This document shows positions 11,246 to 35,875 of a DNA stretch of 48,201 nt, in pieces. Origin of the DNA: an uncultured Pyrinomonadaceae bacterium (lineage in GTDB: Bacteria; Acidobacteriota; Blastocatellia; Pyrinomonadales; Pyrinomonadaceae); the NCBI GenBank assembly GCA_902805935.1, contig CADCUR010000297.1, positions 1 through 48,201 of the forward strand, written 5' to 3'. The position numbers were made by a program, and so were the translations under genes. Below the pieces are notes generated by a model, which ran no database searches, had not been told where the DNA came from, and worked only from the letters and a program-made list of their open reading frames with translations. Numbering within the stretch: position 1 is the first letter of the stretch; the number at the start of each line of letters is the position of its first letter.

Positions 11246-12289
11246 ATGAGCAGAAAATATCGTGTCGGAATCTTAGGCGCGACCGGAACGGTCGGGCAAA
11301 GGTTCGTTCAATTATTGGAAAATCATCCGCAGTTTGAGATCACCGCGCTCGCCGCCTCAGACCGTTCGGCGGGCAAGCCATACGCGCAAGCCTGCGCCTG
11401 GAAGCTCGCCGGCGCGATGCCCGCATACGTCAAGGAAATCATTGTCGAGGCGATTGCGCCGCCGCTCGATTGCGATCTTGTTTTCTCGAGCCTCCCGACC
11501 GGCGTGGCGCGCGAAACCGAAGAAGCGTTCGCTCGCGCAGGCTTCCCGGTCATCAGCAATTCGTCGGCGTATCGGATGGACGAAGACGTGCCGCTCTTGA
11601 TTCCCGAAATCAATCAGGAGCATCTCGCCCTTATCGAAATTCAACAGCGAAGACGCGGATTCGGCAAAGGGTTTATCATTACGAATCCGAATTGCGCGGT
11701 CGTTTCCTTCGCGCCGCCGCTCGCCGCGCTCGACCGGCGATTCGGCGTCGAATCGGTTTTCGTGACCACCTTGCAGGCGATTTCCGGCGCGGGTTATCCG
11801 GGCGTTTCCTCGTTCGACATTACCGACAACGTGCTGCCGTATATCGCGGGCGAAGAGCCGAAAGTGGAAACCGAAGCGCAGAAAATTTTGGGACGATTCA
11901 CGGGCGAGGCGATTGAGAAAGCGGATTTTACCGTTAGCGCGCAATGTTTTCGCGTGGACGTTCTGGACGGACACACGGCTTCGGTGCGCGTAAAGCTCAG
12001 GAAATCTTCGACGCTCGAAGACGTTTTCGCGGCGATGGAAACATTTCCGTCGCTCAAACTACACTCGTCGCCGAAAAGTTTTATAGACGTTTGCGACGAG
12101 CCTTCGCGCCCGCAGCCGCGACTTGACCGCGACAATGGCGAGGGGATGACAATCACCGTCGGCAGAGTTTTCCCCGACAACATTTTCGATTATCGTTTCG
12201 TCGCGCTTTCGCACAACACGGTGCGCGGCGCGGCGGGCGCGGCGATTTTGAACGCGGAACTGCTGATTGATAAAGGTTTTTTCAAGTGA
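11246..12289 (+). CDS. asd: Aspartate-semialdehyde dehydrogenase, archaeal/fungal-type
   Basis: It reduces aspartyl-4-phosphate to aspartate-4-semialdehyde with NADPH, feeding dapA. The 347-aa protein has GATGTVGQ near residue 10 and the active-site cysteine C150 in TNPNCAVVSF. Further conserved segments are SGAGYPGVSSFDITDN and LSHNTVRGAAGAAILNAE. The C-terminal domain (VSAQCFRVDVLDGHTASV) resembles the archaeal/fungal subfamily rather than the E. coli type. The stop TGA at 12287-12289 lies inside the first unit of a heptamer array that leads into the next gene. Confidence 0.93.
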   Translation: MSRKYRVGILGATGTVGQRFVQLLENHPQFEITALAASDRSAGKPYAQACAWKLAGAMPAYVKEIIVEAIAPPLDCDLVFSSLPTGVARETEEAFARAGFPVISNSSAYRMDEDVPLLIPEINQEHLALIEIQQRRRGFGKGFIITNPNCAVVSFAPPLAALDRRFGVESVFVTTLQAISGAGYPGVSSFDITDNVLPYIAGEEPKVETEAQKILGRFTGEAIEKADFTVSAQCFRVDVLDGHTASVRVKLRKSSTLEDVFAAMETFPSLKLHSSPKSFIDVCDEPSRPQPRLDRDNGEGMTITVGRVFPDNIFDYRFVALSHNTVRGAAGAAILNAELLIDKGFFK

Positions 12290-12348
12290 AAAGCGCAAAG
12301 TGAAAGATGAAAATTTTTCGCTTTCCGCTTTTCACTTTTCACTTTGAT
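12286..12348. repeat. Heptamer array, inverted pair (asd-perM gap)
   Basis: Exact 7-nt phase: GTGAAAA 12286, GCGCAAA 12293, GTGAAAG 12300, ATGAAAA 12307, then TTTTTCG 12314, CTTTCCG 12321, CTTTTCA 12328 and 12335, CTTTGAT 12342. The right half is the reverse complement type of the left, so RNA would fold into a long hairpin. It contains the asd stop and reaches the probable perM start. Confidence 0.8.
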
Positions 12349-13464
12349 ATGACTTCTATAGAAACTTCTCAAGCCTCCTTCGCCAAACGAGCGCTGATAA
12401 ACATCAGCCTCGTGCTGCTCGTGCTGCTGCTGGCATTCGTTTTGTTTTACGTCTTTGACGTGATTTTATTGCTGTTCGGCGCGATTTTAGTGGCGATTTT
12501 TCTGCACGGTCTGGCAAACATCTCGCGTCGTTACCTGCATTTGTCCGAAGGCAAATCGGTTTTGCTGGTTTCGGCTATTTTGGTCGCGGCGCTGGCATTG
12601 GCAGTTTACTTGCTTGCGCCGTCGGTCGCCGAACAAGTCAGAAATCTGCGCGATGAACTGCCGCGGTCGCTCGAAAACGTCAGCCAGTATCTTTCCAATT
12701 ACAGTTGGGGCAGATTGATTCTCGAACAAATGCCGAGCAACGCCGAGATGATCGAAAAGGTCAACAATTCAAACGTTCTGTCGCGCGTCGGGAATTTCTT
12801 TTCCTCGACGCTCGGCGCGCTGACGAATATCGCGCTGATGCTTCTGCTGTCAATTTACCTGGCGAGCGAGCCGAAAACTTATATCAAAGGTTTTACGAAA
12901 CTTTTCCCGCAGGAACGACGAAAACGAGTGCGCGAGATTTTGTATGAAATCGGCGAGACGCTTTCGTGGTGGCTGATCGGCAAAGGCGCTTCGATGCTTT
13001 TTATCGGGCTGCTGACGTGGATCGGACTTTATTTTATCGGCGTTCCGCTCGCGCTCACGCTCGGTTTAATCGCCGGACTTTTGTCTTTCATTCCAAATTT
13101 CGGTCCGATTCTGTCAGCCGTTCCCGCAATTCTTTTAGCGTTTATTGACAGTCCGACGAGCGCTTTATATACGCTCGCGCTGTTTGTCGGCGTGCAGCTT
13201 ATCGAATCGAATCTGGTGACGCCGTTGATCGAGCGGCGAACGGTCGAGCTGCCGCCGGTCTTAACGATTGTTTCGCAGCTCGCGCTGACGATTTTATTCG
13301 GCGCGGTCGGGTTGATCTTAGCGACGCCGATTCTGGCGGTCGTGATGGTCCTTGTGCAGACGCTTTACATACAGGATGTGTTAGGCGATGAGCCGGAAAA
13401 TATGCCGGAAGACAACGCGGCGGAAAATAAAGACGAAGTTTTACCGACCGGTTCGCGGGCATAA
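12349..13464 (+). CDS. AI-2E family (PerM/TqsA-like) membrane permease
   Basis: The product of about 371 aa has paired N-terminal membrane segments, a soluble region around residues 90-160, and a C-terminal membrane bundle. That bundle has the family's conserved GVPLALTLGLIAGLLSFIPN and GPILSAVPA segments. Members export small molecules such as AI-2, or act as cation antiporters; the substrate is unknown. ATG 12349 is chosen because an upstream in-frame ATG at 12307 would translate the heptamer array (KIFRFPLFTFHFD). It is preceded closely by asd. Confidence 0.85.
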   Translation: MTSIETSQASFAKRALINISLVLLVLLLAFVLFYVFDVILLLFGAILVAIFLHGLANISRRYLHLSEGKSVLLVSAILVAALALAVYLLAPSVAEQVRNLRDELPRSLENVSQYLSNYSWGRLILEQMPSNAEMIEKVNNSNVLSRVGNFFSSTLGALTNIALMLLLSIYLASEPKTYIKGFTKLFPQERRKRVREILYEIGETLSWWLIGKGASMLFIGLLTWIGLYFIGVPLALTLGLIAGLLSFIPNFGPILSAVPAILLAFIDSPTSALYTLALFVGVQLIESNLVTPLIERRTVELPPVLTIVSQLALTILFGAVGLILATPILAVVMVLVQTLYIQDVLGDEPENMPEDNAAENKDEVLPTGSRA

Positions 13465-13505
13465 ACGCCCCGTTTCTCGCAAATTGGTTTTTTACACAGT
13501 TGAAT

Positions 13506-13569
13506 GCAGAAACACGCGCGAAGTAGTGTGTTTACAGTTTAGACACACTTACTTCGCGCGTGTTTCTGC
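13506..13569. repeat. Long inverted repeat upstream of purB
   Basis: GCAGAAACACGCGCGAAGTA at 13506-13525 is perfectly repeated in inverse at 13550-13569. A further GTGTGT/ACACAC pair sits inside, with one unpaired T. The stem is at least 26 bp with an 11-base loop. No T-run follows, so it may be a terminator, a mobile palindromic element or a structured leader of purB, whose ATG is 22 bases downstream. Confidence 0.85.
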
Positions 13570-13591
13570 AAAAGATTGAGTTTAGTAATTT

Positions 13592-14884
13592 ATGATTGAA
13601 CGCTACACGCTGCCGGAAATGGGCGCGATTTGGTCGCCGGAAAATAAATTTCAGAAATGGCTCGACGTGGAAATCGCCGTTTGCGAAGTTCACTTTGAGG
13701 ACGGAATTATTCCGGCGGACGCGCTTCGTGAGATAAAATCGAAAGCCGCGTTCACAATCGAGCGCATCAGCGAAATCGAAAAAACGACTGACCACGACGT
13801 GATCGCTTTTACGACGAATTTGGCGGAAAACATCGGCGCGGCGGCGCGCTTCGTGCATTACGGTTTAACTTCGTCGGATGTCGTGGACACGGCGAACGCG
13901 CTTTTATTAAAAGAATCGTGCGGTATTCTTTTGCAGAAGGTTGACGCGCTTTTGGAGGTGTTAAAGCGTCGCGCGTTTGAATTCAAAGACACGCCGCAAA
14001 TCGGGCGAACGCACGGCATTCACGCCGAACCGACAAGTTTCGGAATGACATTCGCGCTCTGGTTCGCCGAGATGCAGCGAAACAAAACGCGATTGGAGCG
14101 AGCGAAGGAAACCGTTTCGGTCGGGAAAATTTCCGGCGCGGTCGGCGCTTTCGCTCATCTCGACCCGGATGTCGAGGAAAGAGTTTGCGAAAAACTCGGC
14201 TTGCAATTCGCTCCGGTTTCGACCCAAGTGATTCAGCGCGACCGCTATGCCGAATACCTCTCGACGCTGGCGATTATCGCGTCGAGTCTGGAGAAATTCG
14301 CGCTTCAAGTTCGCCACTGGCAACGAACGGAAGTCAGAGAAGCGCAGGAAAAATTCAAAGTCGGGCAGAAAGGCTCGTCGGCGATGCCGCACAAACGCAA
14401 TCCGATTTTGTCCGAGCGAATCTGCGGAATGGCGCGCACCGTTCGCGCCAATTCAATTGTCGGTCTGGAAAACGTCGCGCTCTGGCACGAGCGCGATATT
14501 TCGCACAGCTCCGCCGAAAGAATAGTTTTGCCCGATTCGTCGTCGGCTTTGGATTATATTTTGGCGAAAACCGCGTCTTTGCTCGACGGCTTGGTGGTTT
14601 ACCCGGAGAATATGCTGAAAAACTTAAATGCCACGCGCGGTTTGATCTTCAGCGGACAACTGCTTCTAGCGCTGACGCAAAAAGGCGTTTCGCGCGAAGA
14701 CGCATACGTTTTAGCGCAGCGAAACGCGATGCGTGTTTGGGACGAAGGCGGCGAGTTTCGTGATTTGGTCGCGGCGGACAAAGATATTACGGACAAGCTA
14801 TCCGCCGAAGAAATCCAACGGATTTTCTCTTACGAACATTACCTGCGAAATGTCGGCAAAGTTTTTGCGCGGGTTTTTGATTAA
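13592..14884 (+). CDS. purB: Adenylosuccinate lyase PurB
   Basis: PurB cleaves SAICAR and adenylosuccinate, releasing fumarate, in purine synthesis. The 430-aa protein has the usual length of the bacterial short form. It carries the fumarase/aspartase superfamily signature SSAMPHKRNP at 262-271, with catalytic serine at S262/S263. It also has TSSDVVDTANAL and QIGRTHGIHAEPTSFG, which holds the catalytic histidine. It starts MIERYTLPEMGAIWS, typical for the family. A terminator follows directly. Confidence 0.96.
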   Translation: MIERYTLPEMGAIWSPENKFQKWLDVEIAVCEVHFEDGIIPADALREIKSKAAFTIERISEIEKTTDHDVIAFTTNLAENIGAAARFVHYGLTSSDVVDTANALLLKESCGILLQKVDALLEVLKRRAFEFKDTPQIGRTHGIHAEPTSFGMTFALWFAEMQRNKTRLERAKETVSVGKISGAVGAFAHLDPDVEERVCEKLGLQFAPVSTQVIQRDRYAEYLSTLAIIASSLEKFALQVRHWQRTEVREAQEKFKVGQKGSSAMPHKRNPILSERICGMARTVRANSIVGLENVALWHERDISHSSAERIVLPDSSSALDYILAKTASLLDGLVVYPENMLKNLNATRGLIFSGQLLLALTQKGVSREDAYVLAQRNAMRVWDEGGEFRDLVAADKDITDKLSAEEIQRIFSYEHYLRNVGKVFARVFD

Positions 14885-14922
14885 ATAAAAAGCGAGAGCC
14901 GAAACTCTCGTTTTTTATTTTA
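14884..14922. terminator. Bidirectional terminator between purB and the DUF4870 gene
   Basis: CGAGAG at 14893-14898 pairs with CTCTCG at 14905-14910 around CCGAAA. The flanks AAATAAAAA and TTTTTTATTT extend the pairing. It serves the convergent genes on both sides. Confidence 0.85.
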
Positions 14923-14934
14923 GATTAAATCGAA

Positions 14935-15330
14935 TTAGTTTGACCATTTATCAGCCAGATCGCCGATAACGGGAAGTTTGAAAATTTGTCCCTGATAGGC
15001 TTTAATGGCGCAGAAAACGACGGCAGCCAGCATTGCCAAGCCGAAAATCATATAAAGCAAGCCGCCCAAACCCGATAACAAACCCGACCGAGCAGCAGCG
15101 GCGGCGCCGAAAACCATTCCGAAAATTAGACCGGCTATTAATCCGGCAGCCGACAATAAAATTGACTGCATTGCGTGAAAACGCGGCAGCTTGTTGGTTT
15201 TGTCAGTAACCAGCACGATGATGCTGTAAATTAAACCGAGGGCGCAAATTATATTTCCCAGATAACAAATTAACGCCCCGACATTGTTGTCCAAACCGAG
15301 CGCGGTTTTTCCGCCTGACATATTTTGCAT
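14935..15330 (-). CDS. DUF4870-type small membrane protein
   Basis: The 131-aa protein has three or four membrane segments. It has the DUF4870/Tic20-like pattern in which LDNNVGALICYLGNI opens the first helix pair and LPRFHAMQSILLSAAG opens the second. An Ala/Gly-rich stretch at about 65-90 is unusual. A good ribosome-binding site (AAAGGAGA) lies upstream of the ATG at 15330. Function is unknown. It is divergent from purS. Confidence 0.75.
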   Translation of the reverse strand: MQNMSGGKTALGLDNNVGALICYLGNIICALGLIYSIIVLVTDKTNKLPRFHAMQSILLSAAGLIAGLIFGMVFGAAAAARSGLLSGLGGLLYMIFGLAMLAAVVFCAIKAYQGQIFKLPVIGDLADKWSN

Positions 15331-15470
15331 AATTTTTTAATCTCCTTTTAAAATTAAAACTTGAATTTGGAAGGCTGAAAATCAATTTACAAAGAATCTA
15401 ACACAAAGCCGTTGCTTAAAACAAGATTTTGCGCGAAGATTTTAACTATTGTTAACGGAGAAAACAGCAA

Positions 15471-15716
15471 ATGAAAGCAAAAGTTTATGTAACTCTAAAA
15501 CCGAGCGTGCTTGACCCGCAGGGCAAGGCGATTCATCATTCGGTCGAGCTGCTCGGCTACGAACAAATCGAAGACGTGCGGCAGGGAAAGTATTTTGAAA
15601 TCGCGCTCGGCGCGAATGTGTCGGAAATTGACGCGCAGCAAACCGCCGAACGAATTGCGAAAAATGTGCTGGCAAATCCGGTTATCGAGGATTATCGCGT
15701 TGAAATTGGTTCTTAG
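15471..15716 (+). CDS. purS: Phosphoribosylformylglycinamidine synthase subunit PurS
   Basis: PurS (81 aa) is the small dimeric subunit that joins PurQ and PurL in the FGAM synthase of Gram-positive-type purine synthesis. It starts MKAKVYVTLKPSVLDPQGKA. It has the conserved pattern HSVELLGYEQIEDVRQGKYF and ends with IEDYRVEI. purQ follows after a heptamer array of about 100 bases. No purL is present in this window. Confidence 0.93.
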   Translation: MKAKVYVTLKPSVLDPQGKAIHHSVELLGYEQIEDVRQGKYFEIALGANVSEIDAQQTAERIAKNVLANPVIEDYRVEIGS

Positions 15717-15822
15717 CCGTTCGTCCTTTGTCCTTTGCTGGTTGAGCGGAAGATTCGACTTTAGCTAAAGATTGACGAACGACAAGGGACGAACGACGAA
15801 CGACAAAGGACGAACGACTAAT
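15717..15822. repeat. Heptamer array, inverted pair (purS-purQ gap)
   Basis: Left arm: GTCCTTT at 15723 and 15730. Right arm, exact 7-nt phase over seven units: GACGAAC 15774, GACAAGG 15781, GACGAAC 15788 and 15795, GACAAAG 15802, GACGAAC 15809, GACTAAT 15816. The arms are mutually inverted. The array fills the whole gap from the purS stop to two bases before the purQ ATG. Confidence 0.85.
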
Positions 15823-15824
15823 TT

Positions 15825-16526
15825 ATGAAATTCGGAGTAATAGTTTTTCCCGGTTCAAACTGCGACCATGACGCTTACCACGTTCTATCGAAGCACGTCG
15901 GGCAGCCGGTTGATTTTGTCTGGCACAAGCAGACGGATTTGAGCGGCTACGACGCGCTGATAGTTCCGGGCGGATTTTCCTACGGTGATTATCTGCGCGC
16001 CGGAGCGCTTGCCAAATTCTCGCCCGTGATGAAGTCGGTCAAAGATTTTGCGGCGGCGGGCAAATTCGTCTTTGGCGTGTGCAACGGTTTTCAGATTCTC
16101 TGCGAAGCCGGATTGCTGCCCGGCGCGCTGATGCGAAACAAAGATTTGCATTTCGTCTGCCGGCACGTCAACGTCCGCGTCGAAAACGGCGCAACGCCTT
16201 TTACGAGCGAACTCGAACAGGGCGAAGTTTTGTCAATTCCGGTTGCACACGCCGAAGGCAACTACGTTTGCGACGATGCGACTTTGGCGGAACTCGAAAA
16301 CAATAATCAAATCGTCTTTCGCTATTGCGACGAAAACGGAGAAACGACGACCGAAGCCAATCCAAACGGCTCGCTCTCGAACATCGCGGGCATCTCGAAT
16401 CGGGAAGGAAATGTTTTGGGAATGATGCCGCACCCGGAACGCGCCTGCGAGGAACTTTTGGGGTCAAACGACGGGCGCGATATTTTTCGTTCGCTGACAA
16501 AAGCCATCGAGAAGTCGGAAAGTTAA
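15825..16526 (+). CDS. purQ: Phosphoribosylformylglycinamidine synthase subunit PurQ
   Basis: PurQ is the glutaminase subunit of FGAM synthase and passes ammonia to PurL. The 233-aa class I glutamine amidotransferase has the nucleophile C86 in [12 protein letters not shown]. Its His/Glu partners lie in [12 protein letters not shown] near the C-terminus, and the N-terminus reads [11 protein letters not shown]. It follows purS in the same direction. Confidence 0.95.
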
Positions 16527-16533
16527 GGTTTTT

Positions 16534-16595
16534 CCAAAGCCCAAAAGCCTTCAAGAGTCCAGAGTTCAAAGTCGAAACCGCTCGGACTTCGAACT
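16534..16595. repeat. Heptamer array between convergent purQ and GHMP kinase genes
   Basis: Continuous 7-nt phase: CCAAAGC 16534, CCAAAAG 16541, then AGAGTCC 16554, AGAGTTC 16561, AAAGTCG 16568, AAACCGC 16575, TCGGACT 16582, TCGAACT 16589. The last two units are inverse copies of the AGAGTTC/AAAGTCG type. It ends against the stop codon of the minus-strand gene. Confidence 0.75.
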
Positions 16596-17602: not shown

Positions 17603-17620
17603 AAAATCTCAGGTCTTTGT

Positions 17621-17661
17621 TTTTGGTATTTAGTTTTAGTATTTAGTTTTTGGTTTCTGTT
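17621..17661. repeat. Heptamer-phased repeat upstream of the GHMP kinase
   Basis: TTTTGGT 17621, ATTTAGT 17628, TTTAGT 17635 (one base short), ATTTAGT 17641, TTTTGGT 17648, TTCTGTT 17655. Unit sequences resemble those of the array at 35.8 kb. No inverted partner is seen here. Confidence 0.65.
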
Positions 17662-17691
17662 GATGTGCGATTGTTTTTCTTTTGTCAATTA

Positions 17692-18465
17692 TTAACCGCC
17701 GATGTATTTGCTTTCTTCCGTATCCGCGTCCGCGCGTCTTCGCGTCTTCGCATCAGTCTTTTTCTCCGTGTCTCCGCGTCTCCGCTTCTCTTTGATTTCC
17801 TCGCGTTCCGGCGAAGTCGTCAGGTGCAGCCGCTCTTCGATGTTGTGCAGCTTTTCTTCGATTTTATGAATCGTTTCGGGATTCGGATTCGCTTCCTCGA
17901 CTTTCTCCGACAAATAATAACGCTCGACGACATAGAAAATAATGATGCCGAACAAAACAATAAAGAAAAGCCAGATGCCGACTTGTTTGAAATCGCCGAT
18001 GATATTGGTAATCGCGCCGCTGAAAAAATAACCGACGCCCGCCAGCACAAGCGCCCAAATCGCGCAGCTAATCACGTCGAGAATAATGAAACGCAGGTAA
18101 GGCATTTTGCCGATGCCGTAAAAAACGCACATCGCCGCCCGGATTCCGTAAATATACTTTGAAATGATAATCGCAAAGCTGCCGAATTTATCAATCAGAC
18201 GCTCGATGCGCGGACGCGCTATTTCATAAAAGCGGTAATCCTTGATGGTTTTCCGAAAAAGCCGTCCGATAAAATAGGCGACATTATCGCCGACGATGCC
18301 GCCGAACATTCCCGCCAGAAAAACCTTCAGAAAACTGTATGAGCCGAAAAAATTGCTATGCGCCATCACGCCCGACAACAGCAAAGTTATATCGCCTTCG
18401 ACCGTGCAAAGCGCGAAGACGGCGTAAATTCCGTATTGCTCGATGATTTCGGTGATGTGTTCCAT
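17692..18465 (-). CDS. DedA-family membrane protein
   Basis: The 257-aa protein has the VTT/DedA-domain pattern: an acidic residue in ALCTVEGDITLLLSG near 18-32, then GGIVGDNVAYFIGRLFRK, and a conserved FGSFAIIISKYIYGIRAAM followed by the C-terminal helices. Members are implicated in undecaprenyl-phosphate or phospholipid flipping. After the last membrane helix comes a Glu/Asn-rich tail (residues about 180-215). The final 40 residues (KEKRRRGDTEKKTDAKTRRR and on) are translated from an 8-nt repeat array, so the original C-terminus was probably shorter. Confidence 0.88.
   Translation of the reverse strand: MEHITEIIEQYGIYAVFALCTVEGDITLLLSGVMAHSNFFGSYSFLKVFLAGMFGGIVGDNVAYFIGRLFRKTIKDYRFYEIARPRIERLIDKFGSFAIIISKYIYGIRAAMCVFYGIGKMPYLRFIILDVISCAIWALVLAGVGYFFSGAITNIIGDFKQVGIWLFFIVLFGIIIFYVVERYYLSEKVEEANPNPETIHKIEEKLHNIEERLHLTTSPEREEIKEKRRRGDTEKKTDAKTRRRADADTEESKYIGG
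17700..17790. repeat. 8-nt-period repeat inside the 3' end of the DedA gene
   Basis: CGCGTCTT is repeated at 17733 and 17741. CTCCGTGT 17764, CTCCGCGT 17772 and CTCCGCTT 17780 form a second block. The period is 8 rather than 7 and both blocks point the same way. It is read in frame as the charged C-terminal tail of the DedA protein. Confidence 0.75.
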
Positions 18466-18610: not shown

Positions 18611-18657
18611 CGCGTTAGTTTCTTGCCTAAACGATTAACGATAAAAATTTAAGAGCG

Positions 18658-20590: not shown

Positions 20591-20605
20591 TTTGAATTAA
20601 AAATT

Positions 20606-25684: not shown

Positions 25685-25696
25685 AGAGCAAAAGTT

Positions 25697-26230: not shown

Positions 26231-27017
26231 GTCCAAACTCCAAAATCCAAAATCCAAAGTCCAAGAGTTGATTTCCAATCTGGGGCTTGGGATTTGGGAC
26301 GTGAGACTGTTTTTACTGGCTACCTTCTGTTTGTTCGCCGTCGGTTGCCGTTACGATATGCAAGACCAGCCGCGTTATAAGGCGCACAAGAAAAGCGATT
26401 TTTTCGCTGACGGGAAAGCGATGAGAGAATTGCCCGAAGGAACTGTGCCGCGCGGATTTTTGCGCGAAGACAAAGCATTTTTTCAGGGCAAAACTGAAGG
26501 CGGACAAAATGCGGCAGCAACGGCGCCGAATCCGGCGGCAACGCCCGCAACCGATTCTTCGGGCAATACTTTGGTCACGGATTTCACCGGCTTGGTCAGC
26601 GAGTTTCCCTTGCCGGTAACGGAACAATTAGTTAATCGCGGCGAGCAGCGTTACAACGTTTTCTGCATCGTCTGTCACGGACCGGTCGGCAACGGCGACG
26701 GTATGATTGTTCGGCGCGGATTTTCCAAACCGCCGACATATAACGACGACCGTCTGCGAAACGCTCCCGTGGGACATTTTTATAACGTCATTACCAACGG
26801 GCAGGGCAAAATGAACAGCTACGCTTCGCAAATTCCGCCCGCCGACCGCTGGGCAATCGTCGCCTATATTCGAGCTTTGCAAATCAGTCAGAATCCGAAC
26901 GGAAATATGCAAATGAACTCAGCTAACTCGGCGAATGCGAACGCGCCGACACCGATAATGAATAATGCGAATCCGGCAACGACGAATAACGCCAATGTTT
27001 CGGGAGGCGCGCGGTAA
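26217..27017 (+). CDS. actE: Alternative complex III subunit ActE, monoheme cytochrome c lipoprotein
   Basis: ActE is the mobile-like monoheme cytochrome of the complex. The heme site is CIVCHGPVGNGDG, and the distal Met is probably in GQGKMNSYASQIPPADRW. A lipobox LFAVGC, followed by RYDMQDQPRYK, marks the mature start. ATG 26217 gives 266 aa, but its first 28 residues (KSKSKLQNPKSKVQEL and on) are a translated heptamer array. A GTG at 26301 would start exactly at VRLFLLATFCLFAVGC, a normal lipoprotein signal, and is a strong alternative. A T/A/N-rich linker lies at about 95-125, and the C-terminus is an Asn/Ala-rich tail. Confidence 0.9.
   Translation: MLKSKSKLQNPKSKVQELISNLGLGIWDVRLFLLATFCLFAVGCRYDMQDQPRYKAHKKSDFFADGKAMRELPEGTVPRGFLREDKAFFQGKTEGGQNAAATAPNPAATPATDSSGNTLVTDFTGLVSEFPLPVTEQLVNRGEQRYNVFCIVCHGPVGNGDGMIVRRGFSKPPTYNDDRLRNAPVGHFYNVITNGQGKMNSYASQIPPADRWAIVAYIRALQISQNPNGNMQMNSANSANANAPTPIMNNANPATTNNANVSGGAR
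26231..26300. repeat. Heptamer array, inverted pair (actD-actE junction)
   Basis: Exact 7-nt phase: GTCCAAA 26231, CTCCAAA 26238, ATCCAAA 26245 and 26252, GTCCAAG 26259; then inverted TTGGGAT 26287 and TTGGGAC 26294. It begins right after the actD stop and ends right before a possible GTG start of actE at 26301. Confidence 0.85.
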
Positions 27018-28235: not shown

Positions 28236-28282
28236 ATACCAATGAATTTCACATTACGAGATTTAATATCCGCTTTGATTCG

Positions 28283-28314
28283 TAATTGTTAGTTCATAAT
28301 TCATAATTAGTTAT
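28283..28314. repeat. Heptamer array before the orf180 start
   Basis: Exact 7-nt phase: TAATTGT 28283, TAGTTCA 28290, TAATTCA 28297, TAATTAG 28304, running into the ATG at 28315. A looser partner lies upstream (about 28240-28280). Confidence 0.65.
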
Positions 28315-28857
28315 ATGGAACCGAAACACGAAAGAACATTTGTAGATTACGACCGCACATACGAGACGAATCTGATAGGTTTGCGCGGCATCATTTATTT
28401 TGGAATCGGTTTGTTTCTTTTGATTGTTATCACTTTCGGCTTGATGTTTTTCCTGCAAAACGTGATGGAAGACCAGGCGAAAGAATCGAAAGACGAGACG
28501 AACCCGATGATGATGACCGACCGCGAACGGCTGCCGCCCGAACCGCGTCTGCAAGCCGCGCCCGGATTCGGTGTCGAAAGCGAGCAGGGCGGTCGCATCA
28601 ATATGGAACTTCGCGCGCCGCAATCCGAATATTGGGAACTCGAACGGCAGTGGGAAAGACAGTGGGCGGACGGACAAAGGGATCCGAAAACCGGAACGGT
28701 TATCACGCTGCCGATTGACGAAGCGAAACGCAAACTTCTGCAGGAGGAGAGCGCTCAGGCGCCCGTCAGCGAGCAATCGCAAAATTCATTGGAAGAATCG
28801 CGTCGGCTGCCTTCGTATTCGAGCGTTGGAAGAACGGCGAGCGATGTACGTCGGTAA
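28315..28857 (+). CDS. Single-pass membrane protein of the ACIII-oxidase operon, unknown function
   Basis: The 180-aa protein has a charged cytoplasmic N-terminus (MEPKHERTFVDYDRTYETN), one membrane helix at about residues 24-46, and a hydrophilic periplasmic part. That part is rich in Glu, Gln, Arg and Trp (ELERQWERQWADGQRD; PIDEAKRKLLQEE). No heme or metal motif is visible. Its place between actF and sco suggests an assembly factor or accessory subunit linking the quinol complex to the oxidase. That is inference; I do not recognise the family by name. Confidence 0.7.
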   Translation: MEPKHERTFVDYDRTYETNLIGLRGIIYFGIGLFLLIVITFGLMFFLQNVMEDQAKESKDETNPMMMTDRERLPPEPRLQAAPGFGVESEQGGRINMELRAPQSEYWELERQWERQWADGQRDPKTGTVITLPIDEAKRKLLQEESAQAPVSEQSQNSLEESRRLPSYSSVGRTASDVRR

Positions 28858-28923
28858 AAGATGAGGGCTACGAGTAAATAAAAAATTCTCGGATTAAAAC
28901 ATTTACTTTACAGTTGAAATTTT

Positions 28924-29838
28924 ATGAGAAAAAGTTCAGTCATTTCAGTAGTTTTGAAACTGAAACTTTTATTGAGTTTGACGGTTTTACTGCTGGCGAC
29001 GAATGTTTCGGCGCAAAAATCCGAACATTATAATTCGCCGCTTTACGCGCCGAAGAAATACGATCCGTCGCAGCCGGGAACAAGCACCGGTTTGCCGGCA
29101 GCTTTAAAGTCGGTCGGTATCGAACAAAAATTAGATGCGCAATTGCCGCTCGATGCCGAATTCAAAAACGAAAGCGGCGAGATCGTTAAACTCGGCGATT
29201 ATTTCGGCAAGGGCAGACCCGTCGTTCTGGCGCTGGTTTATTATGAATGCCCGATGCTTTGTAATGAAGTTTTGAACGGTTTGACCGGAAGTTTGAAAGG
29301 AATTTCATTTGAAGCGGGTAAAGAATTTGATGTTTTAGCGATCAGTTTCGACGCGCGCGAAAACGATAAGCCGGAACTGGCGAAGAATAAAAAAGCGAGC
29401 TATTTGAACAGATACGGGCGCGGCAGCGCGGCGGAAAACGGCTGGCATTTTCTGACCGGAACGCAAAGCGAGATTGATCGAGTAACCGAAGCCGTCGGAT
29501 TCAATTACGAATACGACGAGGCGACCGAGCAATTCGCCCACGCGGGCGGCGTAATGATTATCACGCCCGACGGAAAAACGTCGCGTTATATTTACGGCAT
29601 TGATTACGCGCCGAAAGATTTGAAATTCGCCCTGATGGATTCGGCGGAAGGCAAAATCGGCAATCCGGTCGAGCAGCTTTATCTGTATTGTTTTCATTAT
29701 AATCCGGCGACGGGCAAATACGGTTTGGCGATTTTAAGCGTTTTGCGTTTGATGGCAATCGCCACCGTTTTAGGTTTGGGCGGAATGGTGTTTATTTTTT
29801 GGCGCCGCGACAAAAGCAAATCCGCCCTACTGAAATAG
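28924..29838 (+). CDS. sco: SCO1/SenC copper chaperone for CuA assembly
   Basis: Sco proteins deliver copper to, or keep reduced the cysteines of, the CuA site in oxidase subunit II. The 304-aa protein has a signal peptide (residues 1-30), the copper motif C109-x3-C113 in YYECPMLCNEV, and the third ligand H206 in EQFAHAGGVMI. The thioredoxin-like fold is complete. A C-terminal membrane helix (about 270-295) is an unusual second anchor. It directly precedes coxB, its expected client. Confidence 0.92.
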   Translation: MRKSSVISVVLKLKLLLSLTVLLLATNVSAQKSEHYNSPLYAPKKYDPSQPGTSTGLPAALKSVGIEQKLDAQLPLDAEFKNESGEIVKLGDYFGKGRPVVLALVYYECPMLCNEVLNGLTGSLKGISFEAGKEFDVLAISFDARENDKPELAKNKKASYLNRYGRGSAAENGWHFLTGTQSEIDRVTEAVGFNYEYDEATEQFAHAGGVMIITPDGKTSRYIYGIDYAPKDLKFALMDSAEGKIGNPVEQLYLYCFHYNPATGKYGLAILSVLRLMAIATVLGLGGMVFIFWRRDKSKSALLK

Positions 29839-29852
29839 GTTTGTTAACGATT

Positions 29853-30986
29853 ATGCAAGAGAATTCTTGGGTTTCAATATTTCCCGAACAGGCTTCGACT
29901 TTCGCTTGGGAAGTGGACGTCTTATATTTTTATTTAATCGCCATCACCGTGTTTTTCACGGTCGGCATCATCGCGGTAATTTTCTTTTTCTTCGTCAAAT
30001 ATCGTGAAAAAGAAAAGTTTGCCACCGGAGAGGAAATTCACGGCTCGATTGCGCTTGAAACAGTCTGGTCAATTATTCCGTTCGTGATTTCGATGACGAT
30101 TTTCCTTGGCGGCGCGATTATCTATTTTAATCAGTATCGTCCGCCCGCCGACACGACGGAAATTTACGTGGTCGGAAAACAATGGATGTGGAAAATGCAG
30201 CACGGAACCGGGCAACGCGAAATCAACGAACTGCACGTTCCGGTCGGGCGCAAAATCAAATTGACGATGACGACCGAAGACGTGCTGCACGATTTTTACG
30301 TTCCGGCGTTCAGGACGAAAATGGACGTGGTTCCCGGACGCTACACGACGTTGTGGTTCGAGGCGACCAAGCCCGGAAAATATCATCTGTTCTGCGCCGA
30401 ATACTGCGGATTGAATCATTCGGGAATGGGCGGTTACGTTTACGTGATGGAGCAGCGCGATTTCGACAATTGGCTGGCGGGCAGCGTTTCCGGTCAAACG
30501 CCTGTGCAAGCCGGACAAGATTTGTTTCAGAACAAACTCGGCTGCGCGTCGTGTCACGCCGCCGGGCAAAATCAGCGCGGCGCTCCCGTTGAGGGAATTT
30601 ACGGCGAAGAGATTAAACTGGCGAACGGGCAAACCGTGATCGCCGACGACGAGTATATTCGCAATTCGATTTTGAATCCGCAGTCGCAAATCGTCGAAGG
30701 TTATCAGCCGATTATGCCGACTTTCAAAGGTCAGGTGACGGAAGAACAGCTCGTCTCGCTCGTCGCCTATATCAAATCTTTGAGCGGCGCGGGCGGCAGC
30801 AGTCAAACCGGTTCGGGTTCGAGTTCGGGCGGCGCGGCGACCGGCGGCGCAGGCACATCGGGCGGCAGCGATGCGAATTCGAGCGGGTTGATTCCGCGGC
30901 GCGCCGACCGCGGCGACACAAACAGTATGGGCAGCAATCCGAACGCGCCGAAGCCGATGTCCGAGCCGTCGAACCGGCAGCCGTAA
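29853..30986 (+). CDS. coxB: Cytochrome c oxidase subunit II with fused cytochrome c (caa3-type)
   Basis: Subunit II accepts electrons and carries CuA. The 377-aa protein has two membrane helices (about 24-48 and 72-92). A full CuA set follows: H146, C181, E183, C185, H189 and M192 in CAEYCGLNHSGMGG. A fused cytochrome c domain has C231-C234-H235. A Gly/Ser-rich flexible tail (about 310-345) follows. ATG 29853 is chosen; a longer frame would overlap sco. The fusion means the alternative complex III can pass electrons straight to the oxidase. Confidence 0.95.
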   Translation: MQENSWVSIFPEQASTFAWEVDVLYFYLIAITVFFTVGIIAVIFFFFVKYREKEKFATGEEIHGSIALETVWSIIPFVISMTIFLGGAIIYFNQYRPPADTTEIYVVGKQWMWKMQHGTGQREINELHVPVGRKIKLTMTTEDVLHDFYVPAFRTKMDVVPGRYTTLWFEATKPGKYHLFCAEYCGLNHSGMGGYVYVMEQRDFDNWLAGSVSGQTPVQAGQDLFQNKLGCASCHAAGQNQRGAPVEGIYGEEIKLANGQTVIADDEYIRNSILNPQSQIVEGYQPIMPTFKGQVTEEQLVSLVAYIKSLSGAGGSSQTGSGSSSGGAATGGAGTSGGSDANSSGLIPRRADRGDTNSMGSNPNAPKPMSEPSNRQP

Positions 30987-31031
30987 CGAGGGAATTTTTA
31001 CAAGCAGGGAAATAAAGTTAAAATAAAGTTT

Positions 31032-32705
31032 ATGCAAAACGTAGATGCAATCAATGTCGGAAATATCAAGGAAGAGCCGCGGGTAAATTATTTGACCAAT
31101 GGTTTTACGCTCAAGTCGTGGCTTTTGACGAAAGACCATAAGCGGATTGCGATTCTCTATCTCGTGACGGTTTCCGCCTTTTTCGCACTCGGCGGAGCTT
31201 ACGCCTCTTTAATTCGCCTTGAACTTTTGACTCCGGCGAGCGATTTATTGCAGTCGCAGACTTACAACAAAGTGTTCACGCACCACGGAATCATTATGGT
31301 TTTCTTCTTTTTGATTCCGTCAATTCCGGCGATTTTGGGCAACTTTTTGATTCCGATTATGATCGGAGCGAAAGATTTGGCGTTTCCGCGAATCAATCTT
31401 CTGAGCTGGTATTTTTATATGGCGGGCGGCGCGCTGACGCTTTACGCGCTTTTGCGCGGCGGCGTTGACACAGGCTGGACTTTTTACACGCCTTACTCGA
31501 CGACGTTCTCCAACGGCTACGTAATGGCGGTCGGTCTGGGAATTTTCATCAACGGCTTTTCCTCGATTCTGACGGGCTTGAATTTTATCGTCACCGTTCA
31601 CACGATGCGCGCTCCCGGTATGACGTGGTTTCGTCTGCCGCTGTTCGTCTGGTCGCATTATGCGACGAGCTTGGTCATGATTTTGGGAACGCCCGTCATT
31701 GCGATTACGATTCTGCTGATGGCGCTCGAACGGCTGGCGAGAATCGGAATTTTCGATCCGGCAATCGGCGGCGACCCGATTCTGTTTCAGCATCTGTTTT
31801 GGTTCTATTCGCATCCGGCGGTTTACATTATGATTTTGCCCGGATTCGGCGTAATTTCGGAATTAATCTCCAACTTCTCGCGCAAAAAGATTTTCGGTTA
31901 CGAATTCATCGCGTTTTCCTCGATTGCGATTGCCGTGTTCGGCTTTCTCGTCTGGGGACATCATATGTTCGTCAGCGGGCAGTCAATTTACGCCGGATTG
32001 GTTTTCTCGTTCCTGACGATGGTCGTCGCTATTCCATCGGCGATTAAAGTTTTCAACTGGGCGGCGACGCTCTACAAAGGTCAGATTTCGTATGACACGC
32101 CGATGCTCTACGCTTTGTTTTTCATCGGCTTGTTTTTGATCGGCGGCTTGACCGGCTTGTTTCTCGGCGCGATGGGTCTGGTCGTTCACCTGACCGACAC
32201 TTATTTCGTCGTCGCGCATTTTCATTACGTAATGGTCGGCGGGCAAGTGCTGGCATATTTGGGCGGCTTGCATTATTGGTGGTCGAAAATTACCGGCAAA
32301 ATGTATTCGGAATTCTGGAGCAAAATCGCGGCGATTATCGTTTTCGTCGGCTTCAATCTGACGTTTTTCCCGCAGTTTATTTTAGGCTATTTGGGAATGC
32401 CGCGCCGTTACGCTTCGTATCCTGATGAATTTCAAGTGCTGAATATCTTCTCGACGGCGGGCGCGTCAATTCTCGCCATCGGCTTGATTCTGCCGCTGAT
32501 TTATTTAACGTATTCGATTTTCTTCGGCGCGAAAGCACCGGCGAATCCGTGGATGCTGCCGGGACTCGAATGGCGCACCGCCTCGCCGCCGCCGACGGAA
32601 AACTTTGAAGAAACGCCGATTGTCACTTGGGAAGCCTACGAGTTCGGCGAAGAAAGCGGCTTGGATTTGGAAGACGCGAGAAATAGGAATAAGGTTTTAG
32701 TTTAG
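31032..32705 (+). CDS. coxA: Cytochrome c oxidase subunit I, A2-type
   Basis: The catalytic subunit holds the low-spin heme and the heme-CuB centre and pumps protons. The 557-aa protein has about 12 helices. Ligands are in [10 protein letters not shown] (H84/H85 region), H261 and Y265 in [10 protein letters not shown] (cross-linked His-Tyr), H310/H311 in WGHHMF, and H396/H398 in HFHYVMVGG. At the position of the A1-type D-channel glutamate (HPEVY) there is Ala263, preceded by Y259-S260. That YSHP pattern defines A2-type oxidases such as those of Rhodothermus and Thermus. Confidence 0.96.
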
Positions 32706-32716
32706 TAATTAGTCAA

Positions 32717-32807
32717 TTGTCTTTCGTCATTTGTCCTTCGTTTCGTTTAGGCGAATCTCGAATCTCTCCTAACGAGGCGAAGGACAAAGGACAAAGGACG
32801 AAGAACA
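32717..32807. repeat. Heptamer array, inverted pair (coxA-coxC gap)
   Basis: Exact 7-nt phase: TTGTCTT 32717, TCGTCAT 32724, TTGTCCT 32731, TCGTTTC 32738; then inverted AAGGACA 32780 and 32787, AAGGACG 32794, AAGAACA 32801. It fills the gap between the coxA stop and the coxC ATG. A spurious upstream start would translate it. Confidence 0.85.
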
Positions 32808-32809
32808 GT

Positions 32810-33763
32810 ATGGCAACACACGCAGACGCTTTGCACGACCATCATTATCACGCGCCCGGACTTCAGCATCAGTTTGAAGATATGGGACAGCAGCAGGAAT
32901 CCGCTTCGATTGGGATGTGGATGTTTCTCGTCCAAGAAATCATGTTCTTCGGCGGGATGTTCACCGTTTATCTGGTTTTCCGCTCGAAATATCCGATGGC
33001 GTTTGCGGCGGGCAGTAATCACCTCGACGCATTCTGGGGCGGTCTAAACACGCTCGTGCTGATTGTCAGCAGTTTGACGATGGCTTTGGCGGTGCGTTAT
33101 GCGCAGCTCGGCAAGCGAAATTTACAGGTCATCTTTATCATCCTGACGATGATCTTCGGCACGGTGTTTTTGGGTGTCAAAGCCATCGAATATACAAAGA
33201 AGTATAAAGAGGGAATCGTTCCGGTGGCGGGTTTGAATATGCGAACGGCGAAAACCGCCAGCACGCATCCGGGCGGCAGAGAACTTTCAACCCGCACCGG
33301 CGACACGCAAGATCCACGTGAATCGCTGAACACCGGAGTCAGCGAATCGAACACGCACGAAACGGGCGAACACAGTTATTATAATCCGACCGGCACTTTT
33401 GTCTGGACGGACGCTTCGCTCGCTGCTCAAGCGCAACAGGGCGGCTATCTGACCGACAGCGAAAAAATCGGTTACTTTTCCAACGGCGAATTGAACGCCA
33501 ATAAATTCCGCGATAAAGTTCGCATCTTCTTTTGGATTTATTTCGTCATGACCGGACTTCACGCCTTGCATATGATTATCGGTTTGGGCGTGATGGCGTG
33601 GCTTTTATGGAAGGCGTGGATGGGAACTTTTTCCGCCGCTTATTATTCGCCCGTGGAAATGTCCGGTCTTTACTGGCACTTTGTTGACATCGTTTGGATT
33701 TTTCTATTCCCGCTGCTCTATCTTTTAGGCAGACATTTTCTGCACGGCGGCGCGGGACATTAG
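32810..33763 (+). CDS. coxC: Cytochrome c oxidase subunit III with a hydrophilic insert
   Basis: Subunit III stabilises subunit I and its proton uptake. The 317-aa protein starts [20 protein letters not shown] (His-rich). It has the family helices [40 protein letters not shown] and, near the end, [20 protein letters not shown]. Between residues about 130 and 232 a hydrophilic segment rich in Thr, Ser, Gly and Glu separates two helices; most relatives have a short loop there. ATG 32810 is chosen over an upstream start that would read through the heptamer array. Confidence 0.92.
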
Positions 33764-33808
33764 GCAATTGCGACTTTGTATTTTTAGTTTTGGGTTGAAA
33801 GAATAGTT

Positions 33809-34165
33809 ATGGCAGAAAGGATTAAAACAGCTACCGAATCGGAAAGTCATCATCACGAAGAGCATCACATCGTTCCGCTCATTTATTATTTTGGAGTTTT
33901 CGGGGTTTTGGTCGTCGGCACCATTTTGACGTATTATGCCGCTTTGGTTGATTTAGATTGGATTTTTCCAGGCGCGAACACGTTGCTCGCACTGCTCATC
34001 GCCTTTTTCAAGATGGGTTGCGTCGTGCTGATCTTTATGCACGTTTGGTGGAGCTCGCGCTTAATTTGGCTGACGGCAATTGCCGGATTTTTCTGGCTGG
34101 CGATTATGTTCGCCTTTACGATGCAGGATTATTTGACGCGCGGCGCGGGGGTTTTCACTGGCTAA
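33809..34165 (+). CDS. coxD: Cytochrome c oxidase subunit IV (CtaF-like)
   Basis: The small membrane subunit (118 aa) has a His/Glu-rich N-terminus (ESHHHEEHHIVPLIYYFG) and three helices. It has the conserved NTLLALLIAFFKMGCVVLIF and MHVWWSS pattern of prokaryotic subunit IV. It ends the respiratory operon. Its stop codon TAA (34163-34165) lies inside a perfect 50-bp palindrome. Confidence 0.9.
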   Translation: MAERIKTATESESHHHEEHHIVPLIYYFGVFGVLVVGTILTYYAALVDLDWIFPGANTLLALLIAFFKMGCVVLIFMHVWWSSRLIWLTAIAGFFWLAIMFAFTMQDYLTRGAGVFTG

Positions 34166-34205
34166 TTATGAAGCTCAAAATTTTGAGCTTCATAATTAGC
34201 CAGTG
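34156..34205. repeat. Perfect 50-bp palindrome over the coxD stop
   Basis: The 25 bases 34156-34180 (beginning CACTGGCTAATT) are the exact reverse complement of 34181-34205, with no loop. The last three codons and the stop of coxD are in the left arm. It could act as a strong RNA stem ending the operon, or be a fold-back duplication. Confidence 0.9.
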
Positions 34206-34241
34206 TTTCTGATGCAGTAATTTCAAAAACAGCGAAACGAG

Positions 34242-34303
34242 TTAATAAAAAATAAAGAACGGAAGATGGTAAAAAATATCTTCCGTTCTTTATTTTTTAT
34301 TAA
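34242..34303. terminator. Bidirectional terminator, 26-bp stem
   Basis: Bases 34242-34267 are the exact inverse of 34278-34303 around a 10-base loop. The stem core (AAAGAACGGAAGAT / ATCTTCCGTTCTTT) is flanked by runs of A and T on both sides. It separates the convergent coxD and peptidyl-prolyl isomerase genes. Confidence 0.88.
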
Positions 34304-34315
34304 ACGATTAAAAAT

Positions 34316-35743
34316 TTACTTCTTTTTCGGCGCGGGTTTCGGCTGCGGTTTTTCAGCAGGCAACTCTTCATCTTCCATTCCTTCGGGCATCTGCATCGGC
34401 ATTTGCTGCTGCATCATTTGTTGCTGCATCTGTTTTATGTCGTCTTCGGAAGGTTTCGGAATTTCAAAATCTTCCGGCACTTCGACCGGATTATTTGCCA
34501 CAATTTCGTCAAGAATTTTCTTTTGTTTTTCTTCTTCGAGCGTGCTTTTCACCATATCGTTAATCGGCATTTCGCGTCCCATCGGATTGCTCGGGTCTTT
34601 CTTTGTCGTCGTAATCAGGATATGGCGCACGTCATAAGTTTCCGCCGGTTCTCCGCTCGCCGGATCGGTTGCCGTTTCTTTCTTTTCGAGTTTGATGATG
34701 TGATAACCATAAGGCGTTTCGACGAGATTTTCGGCGATTTGTCCGGGTTCTAACGCCAGCGCCGCCTGTTCAAAAGCCGGAACCATTTTGCCCTTCGTCA
34801 CCGCTTCGTAAAGTCCGCCTTTGCCTTTGGTTCCTGGGTCTTGACTCACTTCGTCGGCTAACTTGGCAAAATCTTCGCCCGCTTTGGCGCGGCTTAAAAT
34901 CTGTTCGGCAGTCGCCCGCTTTTCGGTCGTGCTGTATTCGGGATGTTCGACGATATATTGTTTGACATCTTCGTCGGTGACTTTGACTTTTTCGACCAGA
35001 TTTTTGCTCGCGTAACGGCTGGCTAAAAACTGGGCTTGCTGTAGTTTGATTTGCAATTCGAGATTGCGGTTAAACTCTTCGCCCAATTCGTTTCGTTTGG
35101 CGTTTGCTTCCGCTTCGTAAATCTTGATTTTCGCGTAATCGTCCTTCGCCTGTTTGAGTTCGTCTTCGGTCAAGGTTTTATCTTCGGGAAATCGTCCGGT
35201 TTCTTTGGCGAGCGCGATTTTGGTGTCGAGAAACTGCTGAAACTCCATTTGACGACGCGCCGTTTCATCGCCCAAACCGATTTTATGCAGAAAACCTTGC
35301 ACGCCGGTCGGTTCGCCTCCCGGCGCTTCGCCCCAAAACTGTTTCACCTGCTCTTCAGTGATAAAGCTGAACGGCGGCATCTCGCCTTTACCTTCGTTGA
35401 TGTGTTTATCATAAAGGCTGGCAGTCACAATCGCGCGCGTGCTTTCGAGTTCTCGTTTAACAATTTCGTCGTTCGCCAGACCTTCTTTTCTGGCTTGACC
35501 CGCGACTGCAAGAAGCTGCCGGATATTTTCGGCTATTTTCTTTTTCGCCTCCGGGTTCGCCGACAATTGCTGAAGCTGCATCGGGTTGGCGTCCGCCAGC
35601 AAAACCGACATATCTTCTCGAGTCAAGCGATTCAAAGATTCGTCGCCGTGATGACCGCCGACCTTTGTTTTCCAAAGCACCAAACCGGCGCCGATGGCTA
35701 AAATTACGGCGATGACCGCCACACCTTTGGTTAAATTACTCAA
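34316..35743 (-). CDS. Membrane-anchored parvulin-type peptidyl-prolyl isomerase
   Basis: The 475-aa protein has an N-terminal membrane anchor (residues 5-24), a long helical SurA/PrsA-like chaperone region, and one parvulin domain at about 272-350. That domain includes EQILSRAKAGEDFAKLADEV, DPGTKGKGGLYEAV and GYHIIKLEKKE. A second DVRHILITTTKK segment follows, then a Met/Gln- and Pro/Lys-rich tail. It probably folds exported proteins. The start is a TTG at 35743, chosen because GAGAGG lies at the right distance upstream and no ATG fits. Confidence 0.85.
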   Translation of the reverse strand: MSNLTKGVAVIAVILAIGAGLVLWKTKVGGHHGDESLNRLTREDMSVLLADANPMQLQQLSANPEAKKKIAENIRQLLAVAGQARKEGLANDEIVKRELESTRAIVTASLYDKHINEGKGEMPPFSFITEEQVKQFWGEAPGGEPTGVQGFLHKIGLGDETARRQMEFQQFLDTKIALAKETGRFPEDKTLTEDELKQAKDDYAKIKIYEAEANAKRNELGEEFNRNLELQIKLQQAQFLASRYASKNLVEKVKVTDEDVKQYIVEHPEYSTTEKRATAEQILSRAKAGEDFAKLADEVSQDPGTKGKGGLYEAVTKGKMVPAFEQAALALEPGQIAENLVETPYGYHIIKLEKKETATDPASGEPAETYDVRHILITTTKKDPSNPMGREMPINDMVKSTLEEEKQKKILDEIVANNPVEVPEDFEIPKPSEDDIKQMQQQMMQQQMPMQMPEGMEDEELPAEKPQPKPAPKKK

Positions 35744-35794
35744 TGTATTAAATCCTCTCTTCTAATAATTTCGATTTTGTAAAGGAGTTCTTGG

Positions 35795-35875
35795 TTTTTA
35801 GTCTTTAGTTTTTGGCATTTGTTTGATTAGCTTAAATTGTCTGATTGAATCGAAGACTAAAAACCAAAAACTAAA
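35795..35875. repeat. Heptamer array, inverted pair (mce-PPIase gap)
   Basis: Left arm: TTTTTAG 35795, TCTTTAG 35802, TTTTTGG 35809. Right arm: GACTAAA 35855, AACCAAA 35862, AACTAAA 35869. Each arm is in exact 7-nt phase and the arms are mutually inverted. The array ends a few bases from the mce stop. Confidence 0.85.

Follow-up and report, generated by a model that had tools for sequence, protein, structure and literature searches.

Heptad arrays in the window

The window analysed here is a stretch of 48,201 nt (positions 1–48,201 of contig CADCUR010000297.1, assembly GCA_902805935.1) from an uncultured Pyrinomonadaceae bacterium. It carries short arrays of a repeated 7-nt word, most of which are followed, across a centre, by inverse-complementary units, so that the two arms can pair as a hairpin. 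Nine such sites were each compared with dinucleotide shuffles of their own region (300 for the lag-7 score and 100 for the hairpin score; P values are uncorrected), and several of the window genes flanking the arrays were identified with Pfam. Both tests are strong at sites 12286, 15717, 26231, 32717 and 35795. At the first four of these, the lag-7 score was unmatched in 300 shuffles and the hairpin P value was 0.00; at site 35795, neither the lag-7 score of 8 nor the hairpin score of 18 was reached by any shuffle. These five sites correspond to (i) a GTGAAAA/TTTTCAC hairpin at 12284–12345 (arms 12284–12308 and 12313–12337, array 12315–12345), flanked by a semialdehyde dehydrogenase gene and an AI-2E-family transporter gene; (ii) a hairpin built of GTCCTTT and GACGAAC-GACAAAG words at 15713–15821 (arms 15713–15735 and 15799–15821), which takes up the whole gap between purS and purQ (Pfam PurS and GATase_5); (iii) a TCCAAAA array at 26232–26264 with a partial right arm (TTGGGATTTGGGA), the whole spanning 26232–26299 (arms 26246–26270 and 26276–26299) following actD (Pfam ActD); (iv) a GTCCTTT/AAAGGAC hairpin at 32719–32799 (arms 32719–32754 and 32765–32799), at the boundary between a COX1-type and a COX3-type gene; and (v) a TTTTTAG/CTAAAAA hairpin at 35791–35875, whose arms, read by eye, lie at about 35791–35815 and 35855–35875.

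One or both tests are weak at the other four sites. A weak hairpin with arms GATGAATGCGGAATAATGAAT and ATTCCGCATTAATCATT lies at 3180–3255 (site 3188; lag-7 score 6, P = 0.03; hairpin score 13, P = 0.00) and a weak heptad stretch occupies a convergent gap at 16527–16594 (site 16534; lag-7 P = 0.013, hairpin P = 0.03). The single TTTTGGT/ATTTAGT array at 17619–17656 (site 17621), between a GHMP kinase gene and a VTT-domain gene, proceeds in mixed steps of 6 and 7 nt (lag-7 P = 0.020) with a non-significant hairpin score (P = 0.76), and the TTCATAA array at 28278–28308 (site 28283), with a lag-7 score unmatched in 300 shuffles, is likewise devoid of a significant hairpin (P = 0.28). The first-pass annotation of this DNA had described all nine sites as 7-nt-phased arrays, most of them in an inverted layout, each with its own unit. 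The period stands at all nine (P ≤ 0.03, uncorrected) and the layout at seven, sites 17621 and 28283 being the exceptions. The units are distinct only in part: the GTCCTTT/AAAGGAC word is common to sites 15717 and 32717 and to many other loci of the same genome, in which it has 122 strand matches (overlapping registers and up to two mismatches counted) versus 5 for a control.

Among the short periodicities of intergenic DNA, lag 7 prevails. In a sample consisting of the window and 20 contig stretches chosen irrespective of their content (264 kb, of which 45.8 kb were called intergenic by a simple, purpose-written codon-bias gene caller), there are 16 intergenic lag-7 segments, none at lags 2–6, three at lag 8, none at lags 9 and 10, and no lag-7 segment in shuffled DNA. 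A larger sample covers 1.49 Mb from eight congeneric genomes; 20 of the stretches of the window's own genome in it were picked by matches to one word. The own-genome intergenic DNA of this sample contains 72 segments at lag 7, none at lags 5 and 6, 11 at lag 8, 5 at lag 9 and 3 at lag 10, with raised harmonics (45 at lag 14 and 15 at lag 21), 10 at lag 16 and no lag-7 segment after one shuffle. The peak recurs in the congeners G001, G002, G003, G006, G007 and G008; the congener G005 displays no lag-7 segment in the 11 kb read. Own-genome DNA called coding is also enriched (21 segments at lag 7; 2, 14, 8, 13 and 1 at lags 5, 6, 8, 9 and 10).

A relative with an 8-nt period, noticed near 17700 at the first pass, proved real: arrays of TCTTCGCG and TCTCCGCG at 17714–17790, in the end of the predicted open reading frame (ORF) 17692–18465 on the minus strand, give a lag-8 score of 14 (17700–17800; P = 0.000). 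Beside these arrays, lags 8 and 16 are mildly raised genome-wide.

The 31-nt module and its loci

Among 319 arrays of the genus, 85 measure 31–33 nt, which is the mode, and 32 are longer than 33 nt. In loci of other genomes, the majority belonging to other phyla or genera, 31–33 nt is also the length of 68 of 170 perfect arrays, and a lesser peak at 24–25 nt corresponds to one unit fewer; these loci were picked by the TTTTGGA pattern and duplicates were left in. The ends are phase-locked: where a word has three or more arrays of 29–34 nt, the TTTTGGA word being omitted, the start phase agrees between loci in 72 of 83 arrays, compared to a simulated mean of 60 and a maximum of 69. Neither the length nor the ends would be expected if the number of units were free to vary, but the lesser peak at 24–25 nt weighs the other way. 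The orientation of the word relative to the centre is nearly fixed as well (107 same and 9 reversed outside the TTTTGGA family). The TTTTGGA layout was matched 17 times, at 15 places, in 10 of 162 genomes of the class; the reversed layout, searched with a pattern 2 nt longer per arm, was found in none of the 162. The copied unit is a module of about 31 nt, or about 4.5 heptads, with preferred ends.

Two inverted copies of the module usually flank a centre that is specific to the locus; at times the module occurs singly or faces an unrelated one. A strong stem holds 135 of the 214 array clusters. The period and the inverted layout seen in the window are common to the genome and the genus. The 111 stems scoring at least 14 have a median arm of 30 nt, a median centre of 18 nt and a median total length of 82 nt. 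In several GTCCTTT-family hairpins of the window's own genome and of G008 (L091, L097, L101, L103 and others), the centre contains TCGA within a TCGAGATTT-like stretch, which, judged by eye only, might be a conserved loop.

One module, AATTACGAATTTCAAATTACGAATTACGAAT, is made of unlike heptads in a fixed order. That exact order occurs in at least four genera among the matches listed, and a pattern admitting order variants matches 39 of 162 genomes, with two control matches; L171, being the same DNA as G002, was excluded as an independent case. The collected loci, part of which were fetched because both exact arms had matched, contain the AATTACGAATTTCAAATTACGAATTACGAAT order in 48 contexts; the odd heptad lies elsewhere in 7, 2 and 1 contexts and is absent from 8. 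Twenty AATTACGAATTTCAAATTACGAATTACGAAT elements from three genera comprise 12 with perfect stems and have loops of 8–24 nt, and their mean ungapped identity is at chance level in the loops (0.31) and in both flanks (0.28 and 0.29). That an ordered module reappears at loci with no relation to each other favours the copying of whole units. The first-pass view that such arrays are manufactured locally, rather than being copies of one element, is mostly not borne out: the length, end phase and orientation of a module are retained from one unrelated locus to the next and, in this best case, so is the succession of unlike heptads, in several genera. The arrays look like copies, of many module families rather than of one element, with local centres.

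A hairpin is often retained by relatives at the orthologous boundary, yet built from a different word. The purS–purQ gap contains GTCCTTT-type words in the window, AAGTGGT-type words in G003 and G006, GGTGAAT-type words in G001 and no heptads in G005 and G007. Similarly, the gap orthologous to that of the 28278–28308 array carries other words in G001, G003 and G006, and the gap of the 32719–32799 hairpin carries different words in G007 and G002. Among 95 instances of the window's orthologous gaps, 17 hold a hairpin, 10 an array only and 68 neither; hairpins coincide in 10 genome pairs versus 4.7 by permutation (P = 0.02), with full word agreement in one pair, agreement at 6 of 7 positions in two and lower agreement in seven. 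Between the sister species G003 and G004, whose flanks at these sites are 81–93% identical, one intergenic hairpin (L087:3501) is kept with small changes and four gaps changed word; at one of the latter, a G004-type arm remnant persists outside the G003 hairpin. In four more gaps, chosen for their TTACGAA hairpin in G002, most of the congeners that were read carry different words; G007 and G008 each share the module at one of these gaps, and G001 has degraded relatives of it at two. At a presumed arm-exchange locus, 57 of 64 aligned positions agree in the centre, compared to 21 of 30 and 19 of 28 in the arms, and the centre is about 24 nt longer in G003. In a gap that we take to be that of cinA, judging from the gene sequence, G007, G008 and G004 display the same arms with different loops, the left arm of G004 being short. 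The boundary between the GHMP kinase and VTT-domain genes, which adjoin or overlap in G002, G003 and G006 (gap of −5 to −7), carries 31-nt arrays of differing words in G008 and G001, with a second array 57 nt further in G001, and an 89-nt spacer in the window. Altogether, the alignment of orthologous gaps reveals both gain and exchange of arrays among congeners.

Note that in G007 and G002 the gaps orthologous to window positions 20591–20605, 13465–13591 and 28858–28953 contain hairpins with ACAGAGAA-, CACAGATAAGCACA- and CAGGGATAA-like arms, whose repeat steps are longer, about 8–10 nt by eye; elements with periods other than 7 may thus be of the same kind.

Heptad arrays also lie in frame inside enzyme genes. 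In the imidazolonepropionase (HutI) gene of the window's own genome, the array corresponds to a 10-residue insertion relative to the solved enzyme 2bb0. Of seven congeners, two have an array at this site, with differing words, and five have none; at a second HutI site, three of the seven carry three different words. Repeat peptides encoded by heptads, such as KSKIQNPKSKI, EVQSSKFKVQ and ELRITNYELR, were also seen in conserved enzymes (L099, L095, L117, L118, L079, L087 and others), one of which is TruB-like and others of which we take to be RluD-, RsmI- and LarC-like. In-frame insertion of modules is one possible explanation for peptides of this type. Rickettsia palindromic elements provide a precedent for palindromic insertions that are tolerated in frame in proteins as well as between genes, with elements that are longer and not built of heptads.

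Proposed copying of modules and its alternatives

We lean towards the idea that the arrays belong to mobile palindromes resembling REPINs, i.e. hairpin-forming doublets of repetitive extragenic palindromic (REP) sequences, with modules of about 31 nt that are copied as whole units and exchanged at gene boundaries. Modules would then pass between loci and lineages in one piece instead of being grown at each site by slippage, and would come to rest at the ends of genes as well as, with the frame preserved, within them; where a boundary is already taken, one pair of modules would later be swapped for another. What moves could be the module pair, mobilised, as has been suggested for REPINs, by an activity that works in trans on DNA hairpins. 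Existing hairpins may be preferred landing sites, and hairpin-templated correction might keep the arms matched.

The strongest competitor, which we regard as unlikely yet worth serious attention, is that slippage grows 7-nt arrays locally while strand switching at quasi-palindromes copies one arm onto the other, no element moving at all. Among long-unit repeats in bacterial genomes, those of seven nucleotides are said to be the most frequent class, and polymerase slippage has been invoked for them (PMC4679880, summarising Mrazek 2007). Arms are homogenised within an element even where one base per unit differs, as in G004, and variant heptads are mirrored from arm to arm (identity of 0.87 in the true order versus 0.76 when shuffled, the true order being the best in 61 of 79 cases), an arrangement that fits template switching. 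The mismatch pattern, which is neutral (in co-directional gaps, 90 G.U-type versus 87 A.C-type mismatches in the would-be transcript), fits a process acting on DNA. Speaking against local slippage are the preferred length of 31–33 nt with phase-locked ends, the nearly fixed orientation, the identical succession of unlike heptads shared by unrelated loci of several genera, and the whole-word differences between sister species with otherwise similar flanks. A directional editing between arms, prompted by a repeated A.C mismatch in G004, was also considered and dropped because the arm-to-arm mismatch table (A.C 160, C.A 116, G.T 155, T.G 104) displays no strong asymmetry.

The placement of the hairpins raises another possibility, which we consider improbable: that they are transcribed terminators, RNase barriers or translational insulators, maintained by selection for RNA structure while their sequence shifts and their pairing stays. 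In co-directional gaps, the upstream stop codon is no more than 21 nt from the beginning of 66 of 81 hairpins (the other 15 lying far from it), and 46 of 81 end within 21 nt of the next start. Divergent gaps are poor in hairpins (6 of 103 hairpins versus 105 of 656 gaps, P = 0.004) and convergent gaps display no deficit; moreover, hairpins co-occur at orthologous gaps above expectation. Slightly more than half of the hairpins (53 of 103) lie within 20 nt of both neighbouring genes, so that the near-filling of gaps, remarked upon at the first pass, holds as a tendency. However, promoter avoidance alone can account for the deficit in divergent gaps, arrays are also found inside genes, and Rfam models at gathering score have no match across the window. 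Selection on pairing at the RNA level was undetected in the single test made, in co-directional gaps, as G.U-type mismatches, on the sense strand, are not in excess over A.C-type ones; the proposal that the arrays tune mRNA folding accordingly lacks support from this test.

Less probable still is a two-ended addition at breaks, in which a hypothetical telomerase- or reverse-transcriptase-like activity would extend both 3' ends by about 31 nt from a heptad template before joining, yielding arms in inverted orientation, solitary arrays and pairs of two words. In the genus, adjacent arrays whose words are unrelated do show a polarity (11 with G-type on the left and C-type on the right, 2 reversed, 2 with G-type on both sides; P = 0.02), and single arrays are C-type in 14 of 16 cases near starts and G-type in 8 of 10 near stops, but this polarity is unseen in loci from other phyla (GC 5, CG 4, CC 4, GG 1, other 3; pooled, GC 16 to CG 6, P = 0.05), the GTCCTTT family violates the G-type rule, the two types were defined after the families had been seen, and the 20 or so words per genome, or more, would need equally many templates.

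Several observations weigh against REPIN-like mobility. No mobiliser was found, the candidate tested being the Y1 transposases, including the REP-associated tyrosine transposases (RAYT). Mobilisation by RAYT failed on two counts: the REP foot tag is not above chance (GTAG at 7 of 118 elements and CGTC at 10 of 118, versus 19 and 81 of 640 random places), and lag-7 arrays are not enriched near Y1 genes (within 600 bp of 2 of 20 Y1 domains versus 416 of 2000 random windows). A third test, on the association of Y1 genes with the module pattern, was non-significant, both for presence (37 of 139 Y1-positive genomes versus 2 of 23 others, P = 0.07) and for counts (Spearman 0.15, P = 0.06). Separately, the GTAG tag accompanies 2 of 20 TTACGAA elements. 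No clean pair of pre- and post-insertion sites with a target duplication was found either: filled and empty HutI sites differ by a net 30 nt with no visible duplication, among flanks about 80% identical and few clean empty sites. The co-occurrence of hairpins at orthologous gaps is only twice the permutation level, and the re-use of sites is therefore moderate. One of the four word changes between G003 and G004 amounts to a single base per unit, which gradual change could produce, and the residual agreement of the arms at the presumed arm-exchange locus leaves room for divergence. In addition, the choice of the 20 AATTACGAATTTCAAATTACGAATTACGAAT elements was based mainly on an exact match to both arms. 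Finally, words other than TTTTGGA are shared across phyla mostly at chance level, exceeding it in one of seven groups (a Nitrospira metagenome-assembled genome (MAG), P = 0.007).

Relation to known repeats and reach across phyla

The nearest published case is the P6b stem of the trnL (tRNA-Leu UAA) intron of Nostoc and Calothrix, with Class I TDNGATT and Class II NNTGAGT motifs, for which the authors entertain the idea of a mobile element (PMC4476775). It shares with the present hairpins 7-nt motifs on both sides of a stem and the replacement of whole motifs with retention of the structure (PMC4476775); here, the one-motif arms are likewise replaced whole at fixed sites, save at L087:3501. By contrast, the account of the P6b stem in that paper concerns one intron locus and, in the parts devoted to it, involves no module length, genome-wide dispersal or coding insertion (PMC4476775). 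Like REP and REPIN sequences (PMC3733652), our elements consist of an inverted pair of conserved short sequences with a less conserved spacer, and lie downstream of genes, between unidirectional or convergent ORFs, as well as inside genes; unlike them, our elements have heptad-periodic arms about 31 nt long, with many module families per genome. They also differ in having no GTAG/CGTC tag above chance and no clustering at Y1/RAYT genes.

The TAACTGA repeats of Beggiatoaceae, Cyanobacteria and Bacteroidetes (169 direct sets and one indirect) are also 7-nt direct repeats between genes, often by start codons and in scattered phyla; they are based on one word and nearly all direct, whereas many words, mostly in inverted pairs, are found here (PMC4679880). 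The TAACTGA word itself is present in G007. The G-rich heptamers of Xanthomonas and Nostoc, variable heptameric units of intergenic DNA of which some are inverted, are read by their authors as quadruplex formers, unlike most words here, which are not G-rich (PMC4692102). As for short tandemly repeated repetitive (STRR) sequences and long simple sequence repeats, the 7-nt direct repeats described above exceed other lags and shuffles in the same way.

The arrays are a variation, little described, on two known themes, heptad repeats and palindromic mobile DNA. Reports of heptad repeats have been scattered, and polymerase slippage is what is usually invoked to explain them (PMC4679880). What the present data add is the module length, the preferred ends, the near-fixed orientation, the inverted pairing and the presence of different modules at conserved boundaries; among the best matches in the open-access literature, outside which most subscription journals fall, no paper combining module length, preferred ends, orientation, inverted pairing and different modules at conserved boundaries was found. 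Slippage alone does not predict these features, which makes the origin of heptad repeats directly testable by strain comparison and enzyme search. More speculatively, and with rather less than even confidence, they may constitute a separate class of mobile DNA, in which a 7-nt-periodic module of about 31 nt, two inverted copies of which enclose host DNA and which is drawn from a per-genome library, would be exchanged at fixed gene boundaries by a putative enzyme in many phyla; cyanobacterial STRRs, TAACTGA repeats and P6b stems would each be a single view of it.

The TTTTGGA hairpin occurs in at least 109 stretches of the genome collection. The matches listed include Acidobacteria, Chloroflexi, cyanobacteria, a Nitrospira MAG, Hydrogenedentes, Calditrichaeota and Phycisphaerae (at least seven named phyla), the cyanobacterial records being from Nostoc, Trichocoleus and Oculatellaceae. 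Many of these records are MAGs, so that single records may be mis-binned; those of Nostoc sp. WHI and Trichocoleus sp. FACHB-40 bear no MAG label. With these hairpins, and with the P6b Class I motif fitting the TTTTGGA/TTTTAGA word of this genus (PMC4476775), the likeness to cyanobacterial heptanucleotide repeats noted at the first pass is real. As to a virus as carrier, a TTACGAA 30-mer has no match in viral contigs; a TTTTGGA 32-mer was observed in 17 stretches of IMG/VR contigs (L419–L435), the viral identity of which is putative.

Two further repeats were noticed in the window. A palindromic repeat of about 70 bp at 13503–13573 (acgcgcgaagtagtgtgtttac...), with many partial matches in the genus, represents a second, non-heptad family of dispersed palindromes, and long tandem repeats of about 126–132 nt each lie at 42821–43247 in a large predicted ORF.

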